From Mesorhizobium sp. RMAD-H1 (GTDB lineage Bacteria > Pseudomonadota > Alphaproteobacteria > Rhizobiales > Rhizobiaceae): a stretch of 64,000 nucleotides of DNA. Numbering within the stretch: the stretch's first letter is position 1; every line of letters begins with the position of its first letter. Positions 40,116 to 56,637 of the stretch are shown here, in pieces. The DNA is taken from assembly GCF_014191375.1 (NCBI RefSeq), contig NZ_JACHWN010000003.1, positions 248,001 through 312,000 of the forward strand. Direction: 5' to 3'. The notes beneath the pieces are model-generated. The model did no database searches and was not told the DNA's origin. It saw only the letters and a program-made list of their open reading frames with translations. The position numbers and the translations under genes were made by a program.

Positions 40116-40126
40116 GAGGAATGACC

Positions 40127-42577
40127 ATGACTAGACAGAAACTCGTCGTCATCGGTGCCGGCATGGCTTCGGGCCGCATGCTGGAGCACCTTTTCGAAGC
40201 GGCTCCCGGCGCTTTCGACGTGACGCTTTTCGGGGCCGAACCACGCGGCAACTATAATCGCATCATGCTTTCGCCCGTGCTCGCCGGCGAAAAAAACTAT
40301 GAGCAGATCGTCACCCACGATGCCGACTGGTACGCGTCGAACAATGTGAGCTGCCGCTTCGGCGAGACGGTGACGAAGATCGACCGTAGTGCCAAGGTGG
40401 TGTTCACGCCGAAAGGCGAGACGCCCTATGACCGGCTGGTGGTGGCGACCGGTTCCGCGCCCTTCATCATCCCCATTGCGGGCAGGGATCTGCCGGGCGT
40501 CCGCGCCTTCCGCGACCTCGACGATGTCAATGCCATGGTCGAAGCGGCGGGCAAGCCCAACGCCAAGGCGGTTGTGATCGGCGGCGGCCTTTTGGGGCTC
40601 GAAGCCGCGGCGGCACTGCGCCTGCGCGGCATGGAGGTGGTGGTGCTCCATCTCATGGGGCATCTGATGGAACGCCAGCTCGACCCGGCGGCGGGTTATC
40701 TCCTGCAGAAGGAGCTGGAAGGTCGCGGCATCAAGGTGCATTGCAAGGCGCAGACGAAGGCGATCCTCGGCAACGATCGCGCCGAGGCGGTATTGCTGGA
40801 GGACGGCACCATCTATCCCGCCGACCTTGTGGTGATGGCCGTCGGCATTCGCCCGGAAGTGCGCGTCGCCACCGATGCAGGGCTCTATGTCGAGCGCGGC
40901 ATCGTGGTCAACGACCAGATGGTGTCTTCCGATCCGGATATCCTCGCCATCGGCGAGTGCGTCGAGCATGAACGCATCTGTTACGGGCTCGTCGCCCCGC
41001 TTTACGACATGGCCCGGGTGGCGGCGAAAACGCTTGTCGGTGAAGAAGCCGCCTTCCGTCCGGTGGAAACGGCGACACAGCTTAAAGTGACGGGCGTAAG
41101 TCTTTATTCCGCCGGCGATTTCGCCGACGCGCCCGACCGCGAGGAAATCGTGCTGCGCGATGCGAGCGCGGGCATCTACAAGCGGCTGGTGCTGAAGGAA
41201 AACCGCATTCTGGGCACCGTGCTCTATGGCGAGACGGGCGACGGTCCATGGTTCTTCGACATGCTGCGCAAGGGGACAGACGTCGCCGAAATGCGCGACA
41301 CGCTTATTTTCGGCCAAGCCTATCAGGGGGGTTCCCCCCTCGACCCTATGGCGGCCGTTGCAGCCTTGCCAGATGATGCGGAAATCTGCGGCTGTAACGG
41401 CGTATGCAAGAGCAAGATCGTCGGAACGATCAATGAAAAGGGCCTGATCTCACTCGACGATGTGCGGGCGCATACCAAGGCTTCTGCCTCCTGCGGCTCC
41501 TGCACCGGGCTGGTCGAGCAATTGATGAAGCTGACGCTCGGCGACAAGTACAACCCCGCCGCCGTACAGCCCATGTGCGGCTGCACGGATCTGGGCCATG
41601 ACGACGTGCGGCGTTTGATCAAGGCCAAGAAGCTCAAGACCATTCCGGCGGTCATGCAGGAGCTGGAGTGGAAGACCTCCTGCGGCTGCGCCAAATGCCG
41701 CCCGGCGCTCAACTATTATCTGGTCTGCGATTGGCCGGATGAATATGCCGACGATTACCAGTCGCGCTTCATCAATGAGCGCGTCCACGCCAACATCCAG
41801 AAGGACGGCACCTATTCGGTGGTGCCGCGCATGTGGGGCGGCGTGACGAGCGCGGCGGAACTGCGCGCCATCGCCGACGTGGCGGATAAGTTCAACGTGC
41901 CGATGATCAAGGTGACGGGCGGCCAGCGCATCGACCTGCTCGGCATCGAGAAGGAAGATCTGCCGGCGGTCTGGGCCGATCTCGGCAAGGCGGGCTTCGT
42001 CTCCGGGCAGGCCTATGCCAAGGGCTTGCGCACGGTGAAGACCTGCGTCGGCTCCGACTGGTGCCGCTTCGGCACGCAGGATTCGACGGGCCTCGGCATC
42101 CGCATCGAGAAATTCATGTGGGGCTCCTGGACGCCGGCGAAGCTGAAGCTGGCGGTATCAGGCTGCCCGCGCAATTGCGCCGAGGCGACCTGCAAGGACA
42201 TCGGGGTCATCTGCGTGGACTCGGGCTTCGAGATCCATTTCGCGGGCGCGGCGGGCCTCGATATCAAGGGCACGGAGAAACTCGGCCTCGTCGCCACGCA
42301 AGACGAGGCGCTGGAGGTGATTGTCGCGCTGACGCAGATGTATCGCGAGCAGGCGCGCTATCTCGAGCGCATTTATAAATGGGCCAAGCGCGTCGGCTAT
42401 GATGAGATCCGCCGCCAGATCCTGGAGGACAAGGAGCGTCGCAAGGCCTTCTATGATCGCTTCGTCTTCTCTCAGAAATTCGCCCAGGTCGATCCCTGGT
42501 CCGAGCGCGTCTCGGGCAAGGACAAGCACGAGTTCAAGCCGATGGCGACGGTGGAATATACGCAAGCGGCGGAGTGA
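40127..42577 (+). CDS. nirB: Assimilatory nitrite reductase large subunit NirB
   Basis: Flavo-siroheme enzyme of 816 residues that reduces nitrite to ammonium with NAD(P)H. It has an N-terminal FAD domain (KLVVIGAGMASGRMLEHL), NAD-binding VVIGGGLLGLEAAAAL and a BFD-type [2Fe-2S] domain (CGCNGVCKSK and CGSCTGL). A nitrite/sulfite reductase module follows, with the siroheme-4Fe4S cysteines in CVGSDWCRFG and GCPRNCAEATCKD. ATG at 40127 is seven bases after AGGAGG; the ATG at 40121 is too close to it. Confidence 0.93.
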   Translation: MTRQKLVVIGAGMASGRMLEHLFEAAPGAFDVTLFGAEPRGNYNRIMLSPVLAGEKNYEQIVTHDADWYASNNVSCRFGETVTKIDRSAKVVFTPKGETPYDRLVVATGSAPFIIPIAGRDLPGVRAFRDLDDVNAMVEAAGKPNAKAVVIGGGLLGLEAAAALRLRGMEVVVLHLMGHLMERQLDPAAGYLLQKELEGRGIKVHCKAQTKAILGNDRAEAVLLEDGTIYPADLVVMAVGIRPEVRVATDAGLYVERGIVVNDQMVSSDPDILAIGECVEHERICYGLVAPLYDMARVAAKTLVGEEAAFRPVETATQLKVTGVSLYSAGDFADAPDREEIVLRDASAGIYKRLVLKENRILGTVLYGETGDGPWFFDMLRKGTDVAEMRDTLIFGQAYQGGSPLDPMAAVAALPDDAEICGCNGVCKSKIVGTINEKGLISLDDVRAHTKASASCGSCTGLVEQLMKLTLGDKYNPAAVQPMCGCTDLGHDDVRRLIKAKKLKTIPAVMQELEWKTSCGCAKCRPALNYYLVCDWPDEYADDYQSRFINERVHANIQKDGTYSVVPRMWGGVTSAAELRAIADVADKFNVPMIKVTGGQRIDLLGIEKEDLPAVWADLGKAGFVSGQAYAKGLRTVKTCVGSDWCRFGTQDSTGLGIRIEKFMWGSWTPAKLKLAVSGCPRNCAEATCKDIGVICVDSGFEIHFAGAAGLDIKGTEKLGLVATQDEALEVIVALTQMYREQARYLERIYKWAKRVGYDEIRRQILEDKERRKAFYDRFVFSQKFAQVDPWSERVSGKDKHEFKPMATVEYTQAAE

Positions 42578-42963: not shown

Positions 42964-43812
42964 ATGTCTTATGTTCAGCCCCAGGATTTCGTGACCAAGA
43001 TGATCGATGCCGGCGAGGCGAAGGTCTTCATGTCGACGCGGGACACCATGATCCGGGCATTCATGGCCGGTGCGATCCTGGCGCTTGCTGCTGCCTTCGC
43101 GGTTACGATCAATGTCCAGACGGGCCAGCCGCTCGCGGGCGCCATTCTCTTTCCGGTCGGCTTTTGTCTTCTCTATCTCATGGGCTTCGACCTTCTGACG
43201 GGGGTCTTCACCCTCGTGCCGCTCGCTCTCATAGACAAGCGCCCGGGCGTGACCCTCGGCGGGGTTCTGCGCAATTGGGGCCTGGTCTTCGCCGGCAATT
43301 TCGCCGGCGCGCTCATCGTCGCTGTGATGATGGCGATCACCTTCACCTTTGGCTTCAGCGAGACACCGAACGAAGTCGGCCAGAAGATCGGCCATATCGG
43401 GGAAGGCCGCACGGTCGGCTATGCCGCGCATGGCGCCGCCGGCATGCTGACGCTCTTCATTCGCGGCGTGCTCTGCAACTGGATGGTTTCGACCGGCGTC
43501 GTCGCCGCCATGATGTCGACCTCGGTTTCCGGCAAGGTCATCGGGATGTGGATGCCGATCATGCTGTTCTTCTACATGGGCTTCGAACATTCGATTGTGA
43601 ACATGTTCCTGTTCCCCTCCGGCCTCATGCTCGGCGGCAATTTCTCCATCATGGATTACTTGATCTGGAACGAAATCCCGACGGTGATCGGCAATCTCGT
43701 CGGCGGCCTCACCTTCGTTGGCCTGACGCTCTATGCCACGCATGGGCGCAAGAGTGAGCAGCGCGCGGCGTCCACCACGTTCACCGCCGCCCATCGCGTT
43801 CCGGCGGAGTGA
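42964..43812 (+). CDS. nirC: Formate/nitrite transporter family channel (NirC-like)
   Basis: Membrane protein of 282 residues with six hydrophobic helices. The pattern GFCLLYLMGFDLLTGVFTLVP, GRTVGYAAHGAAGMLTLFIRG, LCNWMVSTGV and GFEHSIVNMFLFP is diagnostic of the FNT family. Its place between nitrite and nitrate reductase genes makes nitrite the likely substrate. ACAAGGAAACTGCA precedes the ATG. nasA begins two bases after its stop codon. Confidence 0.88.
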   Translation: MSYVQPQDFVTKMIDAGEAKVFMSTRDTMIRAFMAGAILALAAAFAVTINVQTGQPLAGAILFPVGFCLLYLMGFDLLTGVFTLVPLALIDKRPGVTLGGVLRNWGLVFAGNFAGALIVAVMMAITFTFGFSETPNEVGQKIGHIGEGRTVGYAAHGAAGMLTLFIRGVLCNWMVSTGVVAAMMSTSVSGKVIGMWMPIMLFFYMGFEHSIVNMFLFPSGLMLGGNFSIMDYLIWNEIPTVIGNLVGGLTFVGLTLYATHGRKSEQRAASTTFTAAHRVPAE

Positions 43813-43814
43813 AT

Positions 43815-46676
43815 ATGACAGCGCGCCCCGAGGGATCGACAAGGCCTGCTGGCGGGGCCTGCATCAAGACCACCTGCCCCTATTGCGGGGTCGGTTGCGG
43901 CGTCATCGCCAGCGTTGCGAAAGATGGGACCGTCAGCGTGCAGGGCGATCCGGAACATCCGTCCAATTACGGGCGGCTCTGCTCCAAGGGCTCGGCGCTG
44001 GCCGAGACGATCGATCTCGACGGGCGGCTGCTTTATCCGGAAATCGACGGCAGGCACGCAGGCTGGGACGAGGCGCTCGATCTCGTGGCGCGGAAATTCT
44101 CCGAGACGATCGCACAGCATGGGCCGGATGCGGTCGCCTTCTATGTCTCGGGGCAATTGCTGACCGAGGATTATTACGTCGCCAACAAGCTGATGAAGGG
44201 CTTCATCGGCTCCGCCAATATCGACACCAACTCCCGGCTCTGCATGGCTTCCTCGGTGGCAGGACATCGGCGGGCTTTCGGCGCGGATACGGTGCCCGGC
44301 GTCTATGAGGATCTGGAAGAGGCCGATCTTGTCATTCTGACCGGCTCCAACCTCGCCTGGTGCCATCCGGTGCTCTACCAGCGCCTCGCGGCGGCCAAGC
44401 AGAAGCGGCCTGACATGAAGGTGGTGCTGATCGACCCGCGCCGCTCCATGACGGCGGATCTGGCGGACATGCACCTGGCCATCCGCCCGGATGGGGACGT
44501 GGCGCTGTTCAATGGCCTCCTCGCCCATCTCGCCCGCAGCCCGGCATTGGATGACGATTTCATCCGCGACCATACCAGCGGTTTCGCGGAAGCTCTGGAA
44601 GCCGCGCGGGCGAGCGAGGCGGATATCATATCCCTGACCGGACTTTCGCAGGGGGAGATCGAGGCCTTCTACAGGGTGTTTGAGACCACGCAGAGGGTGG
44701 TGACCTGCTATAGCCAGGGGGTAAATCAGTCCTCTTCGGGCACCGACAAGGTCAACGCCATCATCAATTGCCATCTGGCCACGGGCCGCATCGGCAGGCC
44801 GGGCATGGGGCCGTTTTCGCTCACGGGGCAGCCCAATGCCATGGGCGGGCGCGAGGTCGGCGGCCTCGCCAACATGCTCGCCGCCCATATGGCCATCGAG
44901 AACCCTGTTCATCGCGAGCGCGTCCAGCGCTTCTGGAACGCGCCGGTTATCGCCGACAAGCCGGGGAAGAAGGCGGTGGAGATGTTCGAGGCGGTTGCCG
45001 ATGGCCGCATCAAGGCGCTCTGGATCATGGGCACCAACCCGGTGGTGTCGATGCCCGATGCCGACGCGGTGGCGAAGGCGATACGGAATTGCCCGTTCGT
45101 CGTGGTCTCCGACATCATGCGCGAGACGGATACGACGCAGTATGGCCATGTGCTTTTGCCTGCCCTCGGCTGGGGCGAAAAAGACGGAACGGTGACGAAT
45201 TCCGAGCGGCGGATTTCAAGGCAGCGGCCGTTTCTCCGAGGTCCCGGCGAGGCCCGCGCCGACTGGCGGATCATCCGTGATGTGGCGACGCGGATGGGGT
45301 TCGGTGAAGCGTTTGCATTTGAGAGCCCGGCGCAGATTTTTGCCGAGCACGCGGCGTTGTCGGGGTTCGAGAATGGGGGCGCGCGGGATTTTGATATTGG
45401 GGGGTATGCGGGGCTTTCAGGGGGTGAATATGATGGCTTGGAGCCGTTTCAATGGCCCGCGCCGGCGCGAGACACCCCCCTCTGGCCTGCCGGCCATCTC
45501 CCCCTCAAGGGGGGAGATTACGCTGTCACCGACCTATGGCACCAATCGCAGACGTTGAACGATGAGAAGCGCGGCTCGCGTCAGCCAATCTCCCCCCTTG
45601 AGGGGGAGATGCCCGGCAGGGCAGAGGGGGGTGAGCGCCAACCCATCCGTTTCTTCGCCAACGGCCATTTCTACCACCCCGACCGCAAGGCGCGGTTTAT
45701 CGCGGTTCAGGCCACTATCACCGAGCGCGTCAACGCGGCGTACCCGCTGGTGCTCAATACCGGACGGATTCGCGACCAGTGGCACACCATGACGCGGACG
45801 GCGAAGAGCGCGCGGCTGTCCAGCCATCTCGCCGAGCCATTCGCCGAGATAAACCCTGACGATGCGGCGATGCTGGGCATTTCTGACGCCGTGCTGGTGC
45901 GTATCACCAGCCCACATGGCGAAATCCTCGTCCGGGCGCTTATTACTTCGCGGCAGCCGAGGGGCGCGGTGTTCGTGCCGATCCATTGGACGGATCAGTT
46001 CGCCTCCAATGCCCGCGTCGATGCGCTGGTGCCGCCAGTGACCGATCCCGTCTCCGGCCAGCCGGCGCTGAAGCATGTGGCCGTGTCGCTGGAGCCTTAT
46101 CGAGCCGCATATTATGGCTTTGCCGTATCGCAAACGCGGCCCAAAAATATCAATGCGGATTATTTCGCTTTCGCCAAGGTCGATCATGGCTTTCGCATGG
46201 AATGCGTTTTTGCCCAAGCGCCGGAAAGCTGGGAACAATGGTGCCGGGAAACATGGCGGCTGCCGGAGACGCTTTCGGCCCTCGCCTATCACGACCGGGA
46301 GAGCGGTGACAGGCGCATCGCCTTCTTCGACGGCGACAAGCTGGTGCTTGCCTTCTACGCCGCACGAACGCCGGTGGCGGTTTCGCGCAATTGGGCGGTG
46401 GCGCAACTCGGCGTTACCCACGATAATCCCCGGCGGCGCATCGCGATCATGGCCGGGCGGCCTGGCGCGGACCAGCCGGATCCCGGCGCGACCGTCTGCG
46501 CGTGCTTTTCCGTGGGCGTCAACCAGATCGTGGCGGCGATCGAAGGCGGGTGCGGCTCGGTGGATGGGATAGGCGCGCTGCTCAAGGCCGGAACCAATTG
46601 CGGCTCCTGCCGCTCGGAAATCAGCGCGATGCTGCAGGCGCATCGCAGGGAGATTCCGGCGCAGGCGGCGGAGTAG
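43815..46676 (+). CDS. nasA: Assimilatory nitrate reductase NasA with an in-frame repeat insertion
   Basis: Molybdopterin enzyme of 953 residues that reduces nitrate to nitrite in the cytoplasm. The N-terminal [4Fe-4S] cysteines are C21, C24, C28 and C56 (CPYCGVGC, LCSKG). The molybdopterin domains follow, and a C-terminal BFD-type [2Fe-2S] domain carries CACFSVG and CGSCRSE. Residues about 553-607 (between WPAPARD and RFFANGHF) are encoded by a type-1 palindromic repeat and have no counterpart expected in the family. The insertion falls before the C-terminal cofactor-binding domain, probably in a surface loop. ATG at 43815 is preferred to GTG 43809. Confidence 0.92.
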   Translation: MTARPEGSTRPAGGACIKTTCPYCGVGCGVIASVAKDGTVSVQGDPEHPSNYGRLCSKGSALAETIDLDGRLLYPEIDGRHAGWDEALDLVARKFSETIAQHGPDAVAFYVSGQLLTEDYYVANKLMKGFIGSANIDTNSRLCMASSVAGHRRAFGADTVPGVYEDLEEADLVILTGSNLAWCHPVLYQRLAAAKQKRPDMKVVLIDPRRSMTADLADMHLAIRPDGDVALFNGLLAHLARSPALDDDFIRDHTSGFAEALEAARASEADIISLTGLSQGEIEAFYRVFETTQRVVTCYSQGVNQSSSGTDKVNAIINCHLATGRIGRPGMGPFSLTGQPNAMGGREVGGLANMLAAHMAIENPVHRERVQRFWNAPVIADKPGKKAVEMFEAVADGRIKALWIMGTNPVVSMPDADAVAKAIRNCPFVVVSDIMRETDTTQYGHVLLPALGWGEKDGTVTNSERRISRQRPFLRGPGEARADWRIIRDVATRMGFGEAFAFESPAQIFAEHAALSGFENGGARDFDIGGYAGLSGGEYDGLEPFQWPAPARDTPLWPAGHLPLKGGDYAVTDLWHQSQTLNDEKRGSRQPISPLEGEMPGRAEGGERQPIRFFANGHFYHPDRKARFIAVQATITERVNAAYPLVLNTGRIRDQWHTMTRTAKSARLSSHLAEPFAEINPDDAAMLGISDAVLVRITSPHGEILVRALITSRQPRGAVFVPIHWTDQFASNARVDALVPPVTDPVSGQPALKHVAVSLEPYRAAYYGFAVSQTRPKNINADYFAFAKVDHGFRMECVFAQAPESWEQWCRETWRLPETLSALAYHDRESGDRRIAFFDGDKLVLAFYAARTPVAVSRNWAVAQLGVTHDNPRRRIAIMAGRPGADQPDPGATVCACFSVGVNQIVAAIEGGCGSVDGIGALLKAGTNCGSCRSEISAMLQAHRREIPAQAAE
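45473..45633. repeat. Type-1 palindromic repeat inside nasA (inverted orientation)
   Basis: 161 bp. Left arm 45473-45519 and right arm 45587-45633 are 47-nt inverted repeats differing at two positions. Each arm has two small hairpins: TGGCC-tgcc-GGCCA or TGCCC-tgcc-GGGCA, and CTCCCC...GGGGAG. The centre, read on the minus strand, contains CAACGTCTGCGATTGG, shared with the other two copies. This copy is therefore inverted relative to them. It keeps the nasA frame open. Confidence 0.88.
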
Positions 46677-46708: not shown

Positions 46709-46868
46709 CACCCCCCTCTGTCCTGCCGGACATCTCCCCCGCAAGGGGGGAGATTGGCTGGCAGTGATGGCGGCGCTTATCTTGCAACGTTGGCGATTGG
46801 CGAAAGCGGAAATGACCGCGTAATCTCCCCCCTTGCGGGGGAGATGTCCGGCAGGACAGAGGGGGGCG
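46709..46868. repeat. Type-1 palindromic repeat between nasA and phoX
   Basis: About 160 bp. Arms at 46709-46755 and 46822-46868 each carry TGTCC-tgcc-GGACA and CTCCCCC-GCAA-GGGGGGAG-type hairpins. The centre contains CAACGTTGGCGATTGG. It lies between two convergent genes, 32 bases after the nasA stop codon, and may serve as a bidirectional terminator. Confidence 0.88.
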
Positions 46869-49799: not shown

Positions 49800-51845
49800 T
49801 CATCTCATATCATCATACCACTTTCGAAATTGGATGCGCGCAACGGCATAAGGCGGCAGCGAGAGAGGACCATCTCTGTTTTTCTCCGCGTCGTCGAAGG
49901 TTACGCCGAAATTTCCCGCGTGCAGGATCGATATGGAAGCCGGTGTTGCGTCCTGAATCTCCACCTCCTGCACCCCCGGGGTGAGGTTGGCGACAAGAAG
50001 CGTTTCGCCCGCCGCCAATGCGAGCACGCGGCCTGGCGCGGACGAGCGGCAGGGCGTCACCGCCTTGCCCGAGAGGCGGCAGAGTTCGCGGATGACGCAG
50101 TGGATGGGGAGGGGCCCGTCCGCGAGAATGCCGAGAGGGCCGGTCAGCGCGGCGGGAACGAAGGAGGCGATGCCCTCGCCGGCCACGCGCGCGGCAAAGC
50201 CTGTTGTCCACGCGGCTGCGAACAGGCCGCGCTGGCGGGGATCGGCTCGCGCCATGGTCATGCGCCTGCCGTCCGGATTTTCCATCGTGCGCGCGCCATA
50301 GGGGTTCTGCCGCATCGGGATGGAGCATAGGCCGAGACGATAGGGCTTGCCCTCGCCGATGATCGCGCGGGCGGAGCGGAAGATGTCAGGCAGCGCCTCC
50401 AGCGTTTCCATGACGCTGGTGTCGTCGGCGGCGTGGACGATGGCGTTGGTGCCATGGGTGACGAAATCGAGCAGATCCACCGGCGGGCGCTTGCGGTTGA
50501 GCTCGGTGAAATAGCTGAACATCCCGCCGCCAAGCGGCGTATCGGGAAAGGCGCGCCGCGCGGCCTCATAAACATCCGCAAGGGGAGGGCAGGGCGGCCA
50601 CTCGCTCCCCGGCGGCGTCGATTGCCGGTCGACGGAAGGGCAAACGGCGAGCGCGGCGAGGTCGAGACGGGTTTCCCGCACCATGGCAGCGAGATCGGCG
50701 AATTCCCGGCCGAGTTCTCCGTCGCAGGCGACGACATATTCGAGCGTGGCGGGCAGTTGGCTTTCCCGTTGCAGGCGGGCGAAGGCGTGGAATTCAGCGA
50801 CGCCATGCCCGGCAGTCGGGTCGAAATGCAGAGCCACGAATTGCGGCGCGAGATCCCGCAAGGCATCGATCCGCTCCATGGTGGGCCCAAGTTCGGCGGG
50901 ATCGATGGTGAGGCCGATGTCAGGCATGGCAGTCTTTGGCGTCGTTTGCCCCTCACCCTTACCCTCTCCCCGTAAAGAACGGGGAGAGGGGGGCGTTGAC
51001 GTTGTTGCTTCCCCCTTGTCCCCAGCGCCTGGCGTTAAGGAAAGAACGGAAACGTCTATGTCCCCCTCTCCCCGCGTGCGGGGAGAGGGTAAGGGTGAGG
51101 AGCAAGTCTGGACGAGAACTGGCCCGTCGGATGAGGGCGCGGCGGCTGCATCGGCCTGCGCGACAACGCGCAAATCGATCGTCTGCCGGTTCGGCTCGCC
51201 CGCCGCCATCACATAGGGCCAGGGCAGAGCGAGGGGGCGGACATAGGTTTTGTAGGAGGCGTCGGACCAGTTGCGCTGGTCTTCCATCTCGAACACATCG
51301 CCGGAAAAAGCGCAGGTGGCGAGGATGCCGCTTGCTACCCGGTGTGTCAGGGCGCGGATATCCTTGAAAGGCTGCCAGGGCTCGATCAGGTCGGGGAAGA
51401 CCGTTTCCTCCACCTGCCCGTCATTGTGCTCGACCTTCACCCATTGCCCGGCGACGCCGACAATCGGATGCAGCACGCAGAAGCCGCAGCGATTGGTGGT
51501 GAAGTCTTTTTCGGGCGTGGCGACTGCATCGAAGACGAGCCGCCCGTCCGCATCGCCTGATATCGCCGCCGCATAGGCGAGGCTGCCGCCGCAGCGGGCC
51601 TGATAGCGCACCGCGAAGCGGTCCGGCTCCTCCTCGACCGTGAGGCCGGTAAGAGCGGGCGCATAGGTGCCCCAGTTCTCGTCCCGCACCACATAAGCAA
51701 TGGCGCGCAGCACCTCATGGCCCCTAAACCTGACATAGCGCAGATTGCCATCGACCAGCTCGGCGGAAAGATCGCCCGCGCTGAGCCGCCGGAAGGTCTG
51801 CGGCGGCTCTTCGGTGCCGTAAAGGGCGATGGCTTCGCTCCTCAT
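49800..51845 (-). CDS. apnL: D-apionate lactonase ApnL with an in-frame repeat insertion
   Basis: Protein of 681 residues identified as D-apionate lactonase from its context and general sequence (GTEEPPQTFRRLSAGDLSAEL, TNRCGFCVLHPI). It would hydrolyse apionolactone made by ApsD. Residues about 248-300 (from CSSPLPSPRTRGEG to SPRSLRGEGKGEG) are low-complexity Pro/Arg/Gly sequence encoded by a type-2 palindrome, so the ancestral protein was near 630 residues. The reading frame is uninterrupted across it. Its start overlaps the apsD stop codon by four bases. The assignment rests on the D-apionate pathway described for related bacteria. Confidence 0.8.
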   Translation of the reverse strand: MRSEAIALYGTEEPPQTFRRLSAGDLSAELVDGNLRYVRFRGHEVLRAIAYVVRDENWGTYAPALTGLTVEEEPDRFAVRYQARCGGSLAYAAAISGDADGRLVFDAVATPEKDFTTNRCGFCVLHPIVGVAGQWVKVEHNDGQVEETVFPDLIEPWQPFKDIRALTHRVASGILATCAFSGDVFEMEDQRNWSDASYKTYVRPLALPWPYVMAAGEPNRQTIDLRVVAQADAAAAPSSDGPVLVQTCSSPLPSPRTRGEGDIDVSVLSLTPGAGDKGEATTSTPPSPRSLRGEGKGEGQTTPKTAMPDIGLTIDPAELGPTMERIDALRDLAPQFVALHFDPTAGHGVAEFHAFARLQRESQLPATLEYVVACDGELGREFADLAAMVRETRLDLAALAVCPSVDRQSTPPGSEWPPCPPLADVYEAARRAFPDTPLGGGMFSYFTELNRKRPPVDLLDFVTHGTNAIVHAADDTSVMETLEALPDIFRSARAIIGEGKPYRLGLCSIPMRQNPYGARTMENPDGRRMTMARADPRQRGLFAAAWTTGFAARVAGEGIASFVPAALTGPLGILADGPLPIHCVIRELCRLSGKAVTPCRSSAPGRVLALAAGETLLVANLTPGVQEVEIQDATPASISILHAGNFGVTFDDAEKNRDGPLSLPPYAVARIQFRKWYDDMR
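49807..49820. promoter_or_regulatory. Operator-like motif at the end of apnL
   Basis: Minus-strand TGGTATGATGATAT, inside the last codons of apnL and about 34 bases before the gntR start codon. The first 11 bases are identical to the motif at 58570-58580 in the oiaX/apnO intergenic region. It could give the regulator gene its own autoregulated promoter. Confidence 0.45.
50948..51103. repeat. Type-2 palindromic repeat inside apnL
   Basis: About 156 bp. The left arm (50948-50995, GCCCCTCACCCTTACCCTCT...) pairs with the right arm (51061-51103, ...GAGAGGGTAAGGGTGAGG). Both contain CTCTCCCC/GGGGAGAG hairpins. It is related to the copy at 29922-30036 but has a longer middle. It adds about 50 codons to apnL without a stop codon. 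Confidence 0.82.
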
Positions 51846-56477: not shown

Positions 56478-56637
56478 CACCCCCCTCTGTCCTGCCGGAC
56501 ATCTCCCCCTCAAGGGGGGAGATCGGCTGACATGGGTGTGGGCACGTACTCTTCAACGTTTGCGATTGGTGCCGGGCGTCTATGACAGCTGATCTCCCCC
56601 CTTGAGGGGGAGATGCCCGGCAGGGCAGAGGGGGGTA
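56478..56637. repeat. Type-1 palindromic repeat between binding-protein and DUF2291 genes
   Basis: About 160 bp. The left arm (56478-56524) has the hairpin TGTCC-tgcc-GGACA, while the right arm (56591-56637) has TGCCC-tgcc-GGGCA in the same place. The two arms differ in sequence but each remains self-complementary. The centre contains CAACGTTTGCGATTGG. It lies 20 bases after the binding-protein stop codon. Confidence 0.88.

Follow-up and report, generated by a model that had tools for sequence, protein, structure and literature searches.

How can a palindromic repeat of 161 bp lie within the reading frame of a nitrate reductase gene and leave that frame open? We address this question in a 64,000-nucleotide stretch of DNA from Mesorhizobium sp. 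RMAD-H1 (contig NZ_JACHWN010000003.1, positions 248,001 to 312,000; hereafter the window), in which a NasA-type gene (nasA) contains one copy of a repeat that we call type 1. The element is likely a non-autonomous palindrome of the Rhizobiaceae, similar to a miniature inverted-repeat transposable element (MITE) or to a dimer of repetitive extragenic palindromic (REP) sequences, which lies in frame in the inter-domain linker of NasA and persists there as tolerated selfish DNA.

The element in NasA and its relatives

The element at 45473-45633 consists of two 47-nt arms, complementary at 45 of 47 positions (96%), with 67 nt between them; the best of 20,000 base shuffles reaches 27 of 47 arm matches, against the 45 seen. 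The nasA frame (43809-46676), whose GTG start was set by the open reading frame rule, remains open across the whole element. An earlier note on this DNA had described an in-frame 161-bp palindrome of a repeat family in nitrate reductase, inverted relative to two other copies in the window, and both descriptions hold: the frame runs on to 955 residues, and the other two full copies are oriented opposite to that in nasA. The span it gave for the inserted segment, residues 553-607, is replaced by residues 555-608 (54 residues), the in-frame segment itself being confirmed.

The insert falls between the Pfam domains Molybdopterin (residues 73-494) and Molydop_binding (647-758), in a protein that ends in a Fer2_BFD domain and is preceded by a NirB-type frame at 40121-42577. 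No NCBIfam model reaches its cut-off among the 25 of 30 models listed, the best of those listed being Fdh-alpha (474 of 666 bits) and NasC (434 of 1100), and the name NasA therefore rests on domain architecture and gene neighbourhood. An AlphaFold model built on a 49-row alignment (mean predicted local distance difference test score, pLDDT, of 86; predicted template modelling score of 0.88) is nearest in fold to the periplasmic nitrate reductase 2v45 (template modelling score 0.89, target length). Residues 561-608 have a pLDDT below 50, so the insert, of about 54 residues, is predicted as a disordered and probably floppy loop on an otherwise ordinary enzyme.

Comparison of NasA-type frames at 110 loci (L031-L140, with some genomes represented twice) shows that the insert is no oddity of one strain. 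An intact linker element occurs in six nasA loci: in the window's own genome (G000), in three of its five congeners (G002, G003 and G004 among G001-G005) and in two Mesorhizobium (L062 and L072), that is, in four of the six genomes of the genus and in a second genus. In all six it stands at the same place after PFQWP, in identical frame and orientation, and reads TPL...LPxKGGD or LPxRGGD followed by I.P..GE..GR.EGG. Short apparent in-frame remnants (TPLCP, APLWP or TPLWP) are found in the linkers of G005, where the segment is NTPLCPGG, of M. metallidurans and of M. xinjiangense. The linker of G001 holds an unrelated palindrome (type 3) with 43-nt arms that are 79% complementary; one further copy lies in the same locus, and no match was found among plasmid records. 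In two loci (L046 and L098) element sequence lies only upstream of the NasA match. NasA of G001 and of G004 also carries, near residue 80, an in-frame palindrome of another, unrelated type (type 2).

The NasA linker of Rhizobium spans about ten residues, and the element is absent there and from the other NasA-type proteins compared. The earlier note had held that the same segment in distant genera would speak against an insertion. The segment does recur in Mesorhizobium, but since Rhizobium and other NasA-type proteins lack it, the Mesorhizobium copies date the insertion rather than refute it. A sequencing error, also raised there, is very unlikely because three congeners and two Mesorhizobium hold an in-frame copy at the same place. 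We regard excision of the segment from the mRNA or the protein, in the manner of an intron or intein, as improbable in the extreme: the element matches no Rfam family at gathering score, and the frame is open across the insert in all six nasA loci with the element, which splicing would not need. Below-threshold Rfam matches all lie far under their gathering scores and were taken as chance hairpin matches.

In six pairwise comparisons among G000, G002, G003 and G004, the ratio of nonsynonymous to synonymous divergence (dN/dS) of the insert is 0.60-0.98, versus 0.12-0.16 for the rest of nasA. That the gene is constrained while the loop drifts is evidence that the enzyme works with the loop in place.

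A repeat family with few copies in genes

The 5.14-Mb genome gives 82 forward and 86 reverse arm matches (≤3 mismatches; 0 in a backward control), and holds about 84 type 1 copies. At ≤2 mismatches, arms are present in 31 of 101 genomes: 31 of the 61 from the same family in GTDB, and none of the 40 from elsewhere in the order. Within the genus, each of the six genomes carries between 42 and 168 arms per strand. A further set of ten genomes (G101-G110), found by way of named loci, comprises five from Mesorhizobium, two from Rhizobium, one from P. leguminum (G106) and two from other Phyllobacterium; all ten match at ≤3 mismatches, one of them with a single arm. Arm matches also occur in 179 of 72,556 plasmid records, mainly from Rhizobium (70) and Sinorhizobium (69). 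Two are from Pannonibacter, so the limit to one family is true only of the 101 genomes. Of the 40 records listed among these 179, 37 show no gene annotation beneath the best match, and the other 3 carry no annotation at all.

Each arm contains a small hairpin, GNCC-TGCC-GGN'C; in most cases its variable pair is C-G, G-C or T-A. Of 270 arms, 265 could be parsed, and in 255 of these the variable position is paired, versus 47% expected if independent; only 48 of 130 elements have the same variable pair in both arms. Because the hairpin covaries within an arm and partner arms often differ in the pair, the single arm, and not the long stem only, is the unit that is kept, as in REP dimers. Terminal inverted repeats of the kind that define MITEs are present. 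Many copies are flanked, beyond the 161 bp, by recurring exchangeable modules about 20 nt long, among them AAACGCTGGCGGGACAG and TTRATGGAATCGCGAGRC (68 of 72 copies viewed), for example at L184, L199 and L025; the element therefore looks mosaic, and the modules suggest a full length of about 200 bp. Seven type 1 copies are clustered within about 19 kb of this genome (C8, 72192-91195).

Reading the surroundings of 72 two-armed copies, with four one-armed matches set aside and perhaps ten further copies outside this reading, we find 4 of 72 inside genes recognised by Pfam or NCBIfam. These genes are nasA, nadB, pbpC (penicillin-binding protein 1C) and cobN, and all four copies are in frame. The nadB insert lies between FAD_binding_2 and Succ_DH_flav_C, that of pbpC falls within the Pfam transpeptidase match and that of cobN inside the CobN match. 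Three reading frames of the left arm are in use over the four genes. Taken with the near-neutral dN/dS, this agrees with the view of the earlier note that the peptide is not conserved as such.

The count applies to frames within the Pfam scan, which left shorter candidate frames outside. The frames at L007 and L028 and an antisense frame at L190 lack a Pfam match and were taken as chance frames, and at L024 (UbiB-type) the element precedes the ABC1 domain and perhaps the start; all were left out. In the congeners, long open frames surround at least 16 copies, as judged from one peptide frame outside the Pfam scan, and these were not counted as genic. In 13 of the 16 the element begins no later than residue 60 of the open frame and is there probably upstream of the real start; two of the remaining three have it at the C-terminal end and one at residue 148.

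An element adapted to coding was considered and rejected. In 68 of the 72 two-armed copies (the other four being filed under congener locus names), 1.85 of 6 frames are open per copy, versus 1.99 in dinucleotide shuffles, and one or more frames are open in 58 of the 68, versus 92% of shuffles. Nor is selection against strong hairpins in genes seen: of 64 other copies, 47 are more stable than the nasA hairpin, 38 than that of pbpC and 52 than that of cobN, with only 4 more stable than that of nadB.

These data bear on the alternative that the insert has been domesticated, either as a useful loop of NasA or as an intragenic mRNA hairpin acting in docking, stability or control by RNase III. Its retention in frame in most of the genus and in two Mesorhizobium, always in one frame and orientation, fits that proposal, as do a hairpin that folds at -115 kcal/mol and a synonymous divergence (dS) below that of the gene. 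Against it stand the dN/dS of the insert, the remnants or unrelated palindrome at the same place in other species, the predicted disorder of the loop and the ordinary stability of the nasA, pbpC and cobN hairpins within the family. We therefore consider domestication quite unlikely. The claim that the repeat is a source of new protein segments survives for raw material only, and not for a functional segment.

Filled, apparently scarred and possibly re-filled codon sites

The other genic sites show a similar mixture of states across the genus. In nadB, the element is present in G000, G001 and G003, an apparent scar is left in G002, and no recognisable element is found in G004 or G005. Five of six genomes are filled at pbpC, where the copy in G002 is partly deleted, and five of six at the first site of cobN, with an apparent scar in G005; stops flagged in cobN fall outside or before the conserved MHLLLAQK start (three species checked). 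A second cobN site, covered in five genomes, is occupied by type 2 in two of them (G000 and G003), by type 1 in another two (G001 and G004) and by an apparent scar in G002. The window itself also has a type 2 copy, in frame within a gene for D-apionate lactonase (Table 1); its arms, CCTCACCCTTACCCTCTCCCCG, are 100% complementary.

The left-arm reading frame of cobN and pbpC varies between species. Orientation was assigned against 90 copies excluding the genic ones, and a pool that included them gave the same result: the cobN copy is forward in G000, G002 and G004 and reverse in G001 and G003, the nadB copy is forward in G000, reverse in G001 and undecided in G003, and the pbpC copy is reverse in all five filled genomes. 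Gene trees of nasA and cobN group G000 with G003, and those of nadB and pbpC group G001 with G003; recombination between congener lineages is therefore probably part of this history.

Table 1 Positions of the palindromes and their host genes (window coordinates unless a locus is named)
Feature	Position	Strand	Remarks
NasA-type molybdopterin nitrate reductase, 955 aa	43809..46676	+	Molybdop_Fe4S4, Molybdopterin, Molydop_binding, Fer2_BFD
Type 1 palindromic element, 161 bp, in frame in nasA	45473..45633	-	opposite to the other two window copies
Left arm	45473..45519	+	hairpin GNCC-TGCC-GGN'C plus hairpin ATCTCCCCC-TCAA-GGGGGAGAT
Right arm	45587..45633	-	inverted copy of left arm, 45/47 complementary
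Insert-encoded codons 555-608 of the NasA-type protein (54 residues)	45471..45632	+	
Type 1 element, second copy	about 46709..46868	+	directly downstream of nasA
Type 1 element, third copy	about 56478..56636	+	
D-apionate lactonase, 681 aa, type 2 host	49800..51845	-	NF049900 816 bits, cut-off 750
Type 2 palindrome, in frame, lactonase residues about 248-299	50950..51101	-	unrelated to type 1
Type 3 palindrome, nasA linker of G001	L035 2525-2674		reads FPLAGKVPAERADGGG
cobN second-site copy	L252 1172-1323		
cobN second-site copy	L254 3901-4052		

These patterns would follow if insertions land widely across the genome and selection removes those that break genes, so that the survivors within genes are in frame, free of stops and placed in flexible linkers. 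The mRNA would be translated through the hairpin, and the loop would stay in the enzyme without a useful role. Deletions within the palindrome would leave in-frame scars, the same linkers may be refilled by other palindromes, and persisting copies may be refreshed or replaced. A stronger form of this proposal, which we judge to be evenly balanced between true and false, is that the codon sites (the NasA linker, two in CobN and one each in NadB and PbpC) are standing refuges in core enzymes of the Rhizobiaceae; unrelated palindromes would take up one and the same codon site in different species, with differing frames and orientations, decay to in-frame scars and be replaced, overwriting disordered loops of about 50 residues repeatedly.

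Reuse of sites could instead reflect an element that prefers a DNA sequence found in these linkers, the choice then being one of insertion and not of protein tolerance. The recurrence of flank modules beside many copies could be read in this way, as could the reuse itself. Palindromes of unrelated families at the same two sites argue against such a preference, however, as does the finding, by eye, of no single fixed target in the flanks of 68 copies, and we think it unlikely.

A further question is whether all type 1 cases at nasA descend from a single insertion in an ancestor of the genus and Mesorhizobium, refreshed since then by conversion through the near-identical arms. One old insertion fits because frame and orientation are equal in all six copies, which also share their position across two genera, and the remnants in G005, M. 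metallidurans and M. xinjiangense point the same way. Conversion is in line with the arms of random copies being 92% identical and their cores 62%. On the other side, same-site cores show no greater similarity than non-orthologous cores do (mean identity 0.642 versus 0.648 for 29 congener pairs over four genes, 4 of the 29 congener-pool copies, L148, L154, L160 and L166, being from the window's own genome), a comparison with little power at such divergence. Orientation varies in cobN and nadB, and the G001 linker contains a different palindrome. Core identity at nasA is 0.48-0.72 among congeners, 0.52-0.59 between congeners and Mesorhizobium and 0.89 between the two Mesorhizobium, and a phylogeny of element copies did not resolve a single nasA insertion. 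We give this history roughly an even chance. It is compatible with a tolerated selfish element and concerns the age and number of events.

Several observations weigh against the reading of the element as mobile, passively tolerated DNA. The agreement of all six nasA copies in frame and orientation leaves recurrent type 1 insertion unsupported at nasA, as far as these sequences go, and no precise empty site was found among the relatives compared. The dS of the insert (0.24-0.40) is below that of the rest of nasA (0.42-0.92), which is unexpected for a passenger that is old and passive; this requires that copies convert one another, that the element re-inserts or that the arms are constrained. 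No clear target duplication is visible by eye in the flanks of 68 copies. The Y1 transposase PF01797, the only transposase family searched, has no match in G000, G001, G002 or G005 and is present in 13 of the 101 genomes; a Y1/RAYT-type transposase as mobiliser is unsupported, as G001 has about 160 copies yet no PF01797 match.

Relation to known palindromic elements

Set beside other systems by description, the type 1 family seems comparable to the Rickettsia palindromic elements (RPEs) and to intragenic REPs, and we do not claim membership in either. RPEs (Ogata et al. 2000, 2002) are described in PMC10969869 and PMC2229807 as palindromes of about 100-150 bp found in frame in metabolic genes and between genes. 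The earlier note had drawn this parallel, and it is sound: type 1 is likewise a many-copy palindrome tolerated by its host protein, found between genes and, in frame, within conserved metabolic genes. It differs in its length, in having few copies in recognised genes, where PMC10969869 gives nearly half for RPEs, in using several frames with no conserved encoded peptide, and in a host related to Phyllobacterium and Mesorhizobium.

The intragenic GTAG/CGTC REPs of Di Nocera et al. (2013; PMC3733652) resemble type 1 in their paired inverted hairpin units, some of them inside open reading frames, and the ATCTCCCCC stem with its 4-nt loop resembles CGTC stems. By inspection, in contrast with that description, no terminal GTAG or CGTC tag is present in the arms or in the 68-copy flank table; the element is also 161 bp long with a 67-bp core, in a genome without a Y1 transposase match. 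The same source describes different REPs near the same recB site in two Xanthomonas species, and site reuse therefore has precedent.

RU/ERIC-type MITEs (Delihas 2007; PMC2759123) are likewise short elements with inverted repeats, and their reading frames are fused to genes. The examples described there keep the peptide in all but one case, and none lies within superfamily conserved domains, whereas here the frames vary and the pbpC insert falls within a Pfam match. The Rhizobium-specific intergenic mosaic elements (RIMEs; Osteras et al. 1995, cited in PMC2573895, PMC2245857 and PMC2873474) are, by description, likewise repeats of rhizobia; type 1 has end modules that can be exchanged, and it is found on plasmids of Rhizobium and Sinorhizobium. 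In-frame palindromes are also described from MITEs of enterobacteria and Coxiella (PMC10969869, PMC2229807, PMC2759123, PMC5896051). None was found in Phyllobacterium or Mesorhizobium proteins among the literature matches listed, which do not cover the intragenic-REP supplement of PMC3733652, and a literature search by sequence string gave only unrelated matches among those listed. New here are the type 1 family in Rhizobiaceae proteins and the reuse of codon sites by unrelated palindrome families.

Rickettsia is the best-known source of in-frame selfish palindromes, and the present group is related to cultivable soil bacteria. Nitrate reductase activity is easily assayed, and the six congeners offer ready-made alleles. 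Sites that are filled, scarred and re-filled would allow a direct test of whether such inserts are merely tolerated or can become useful protein. If the codon sites are refuges, their pattern would map, in nature, where proteins tolerate insertions, and would keep supplying new protein sequence.

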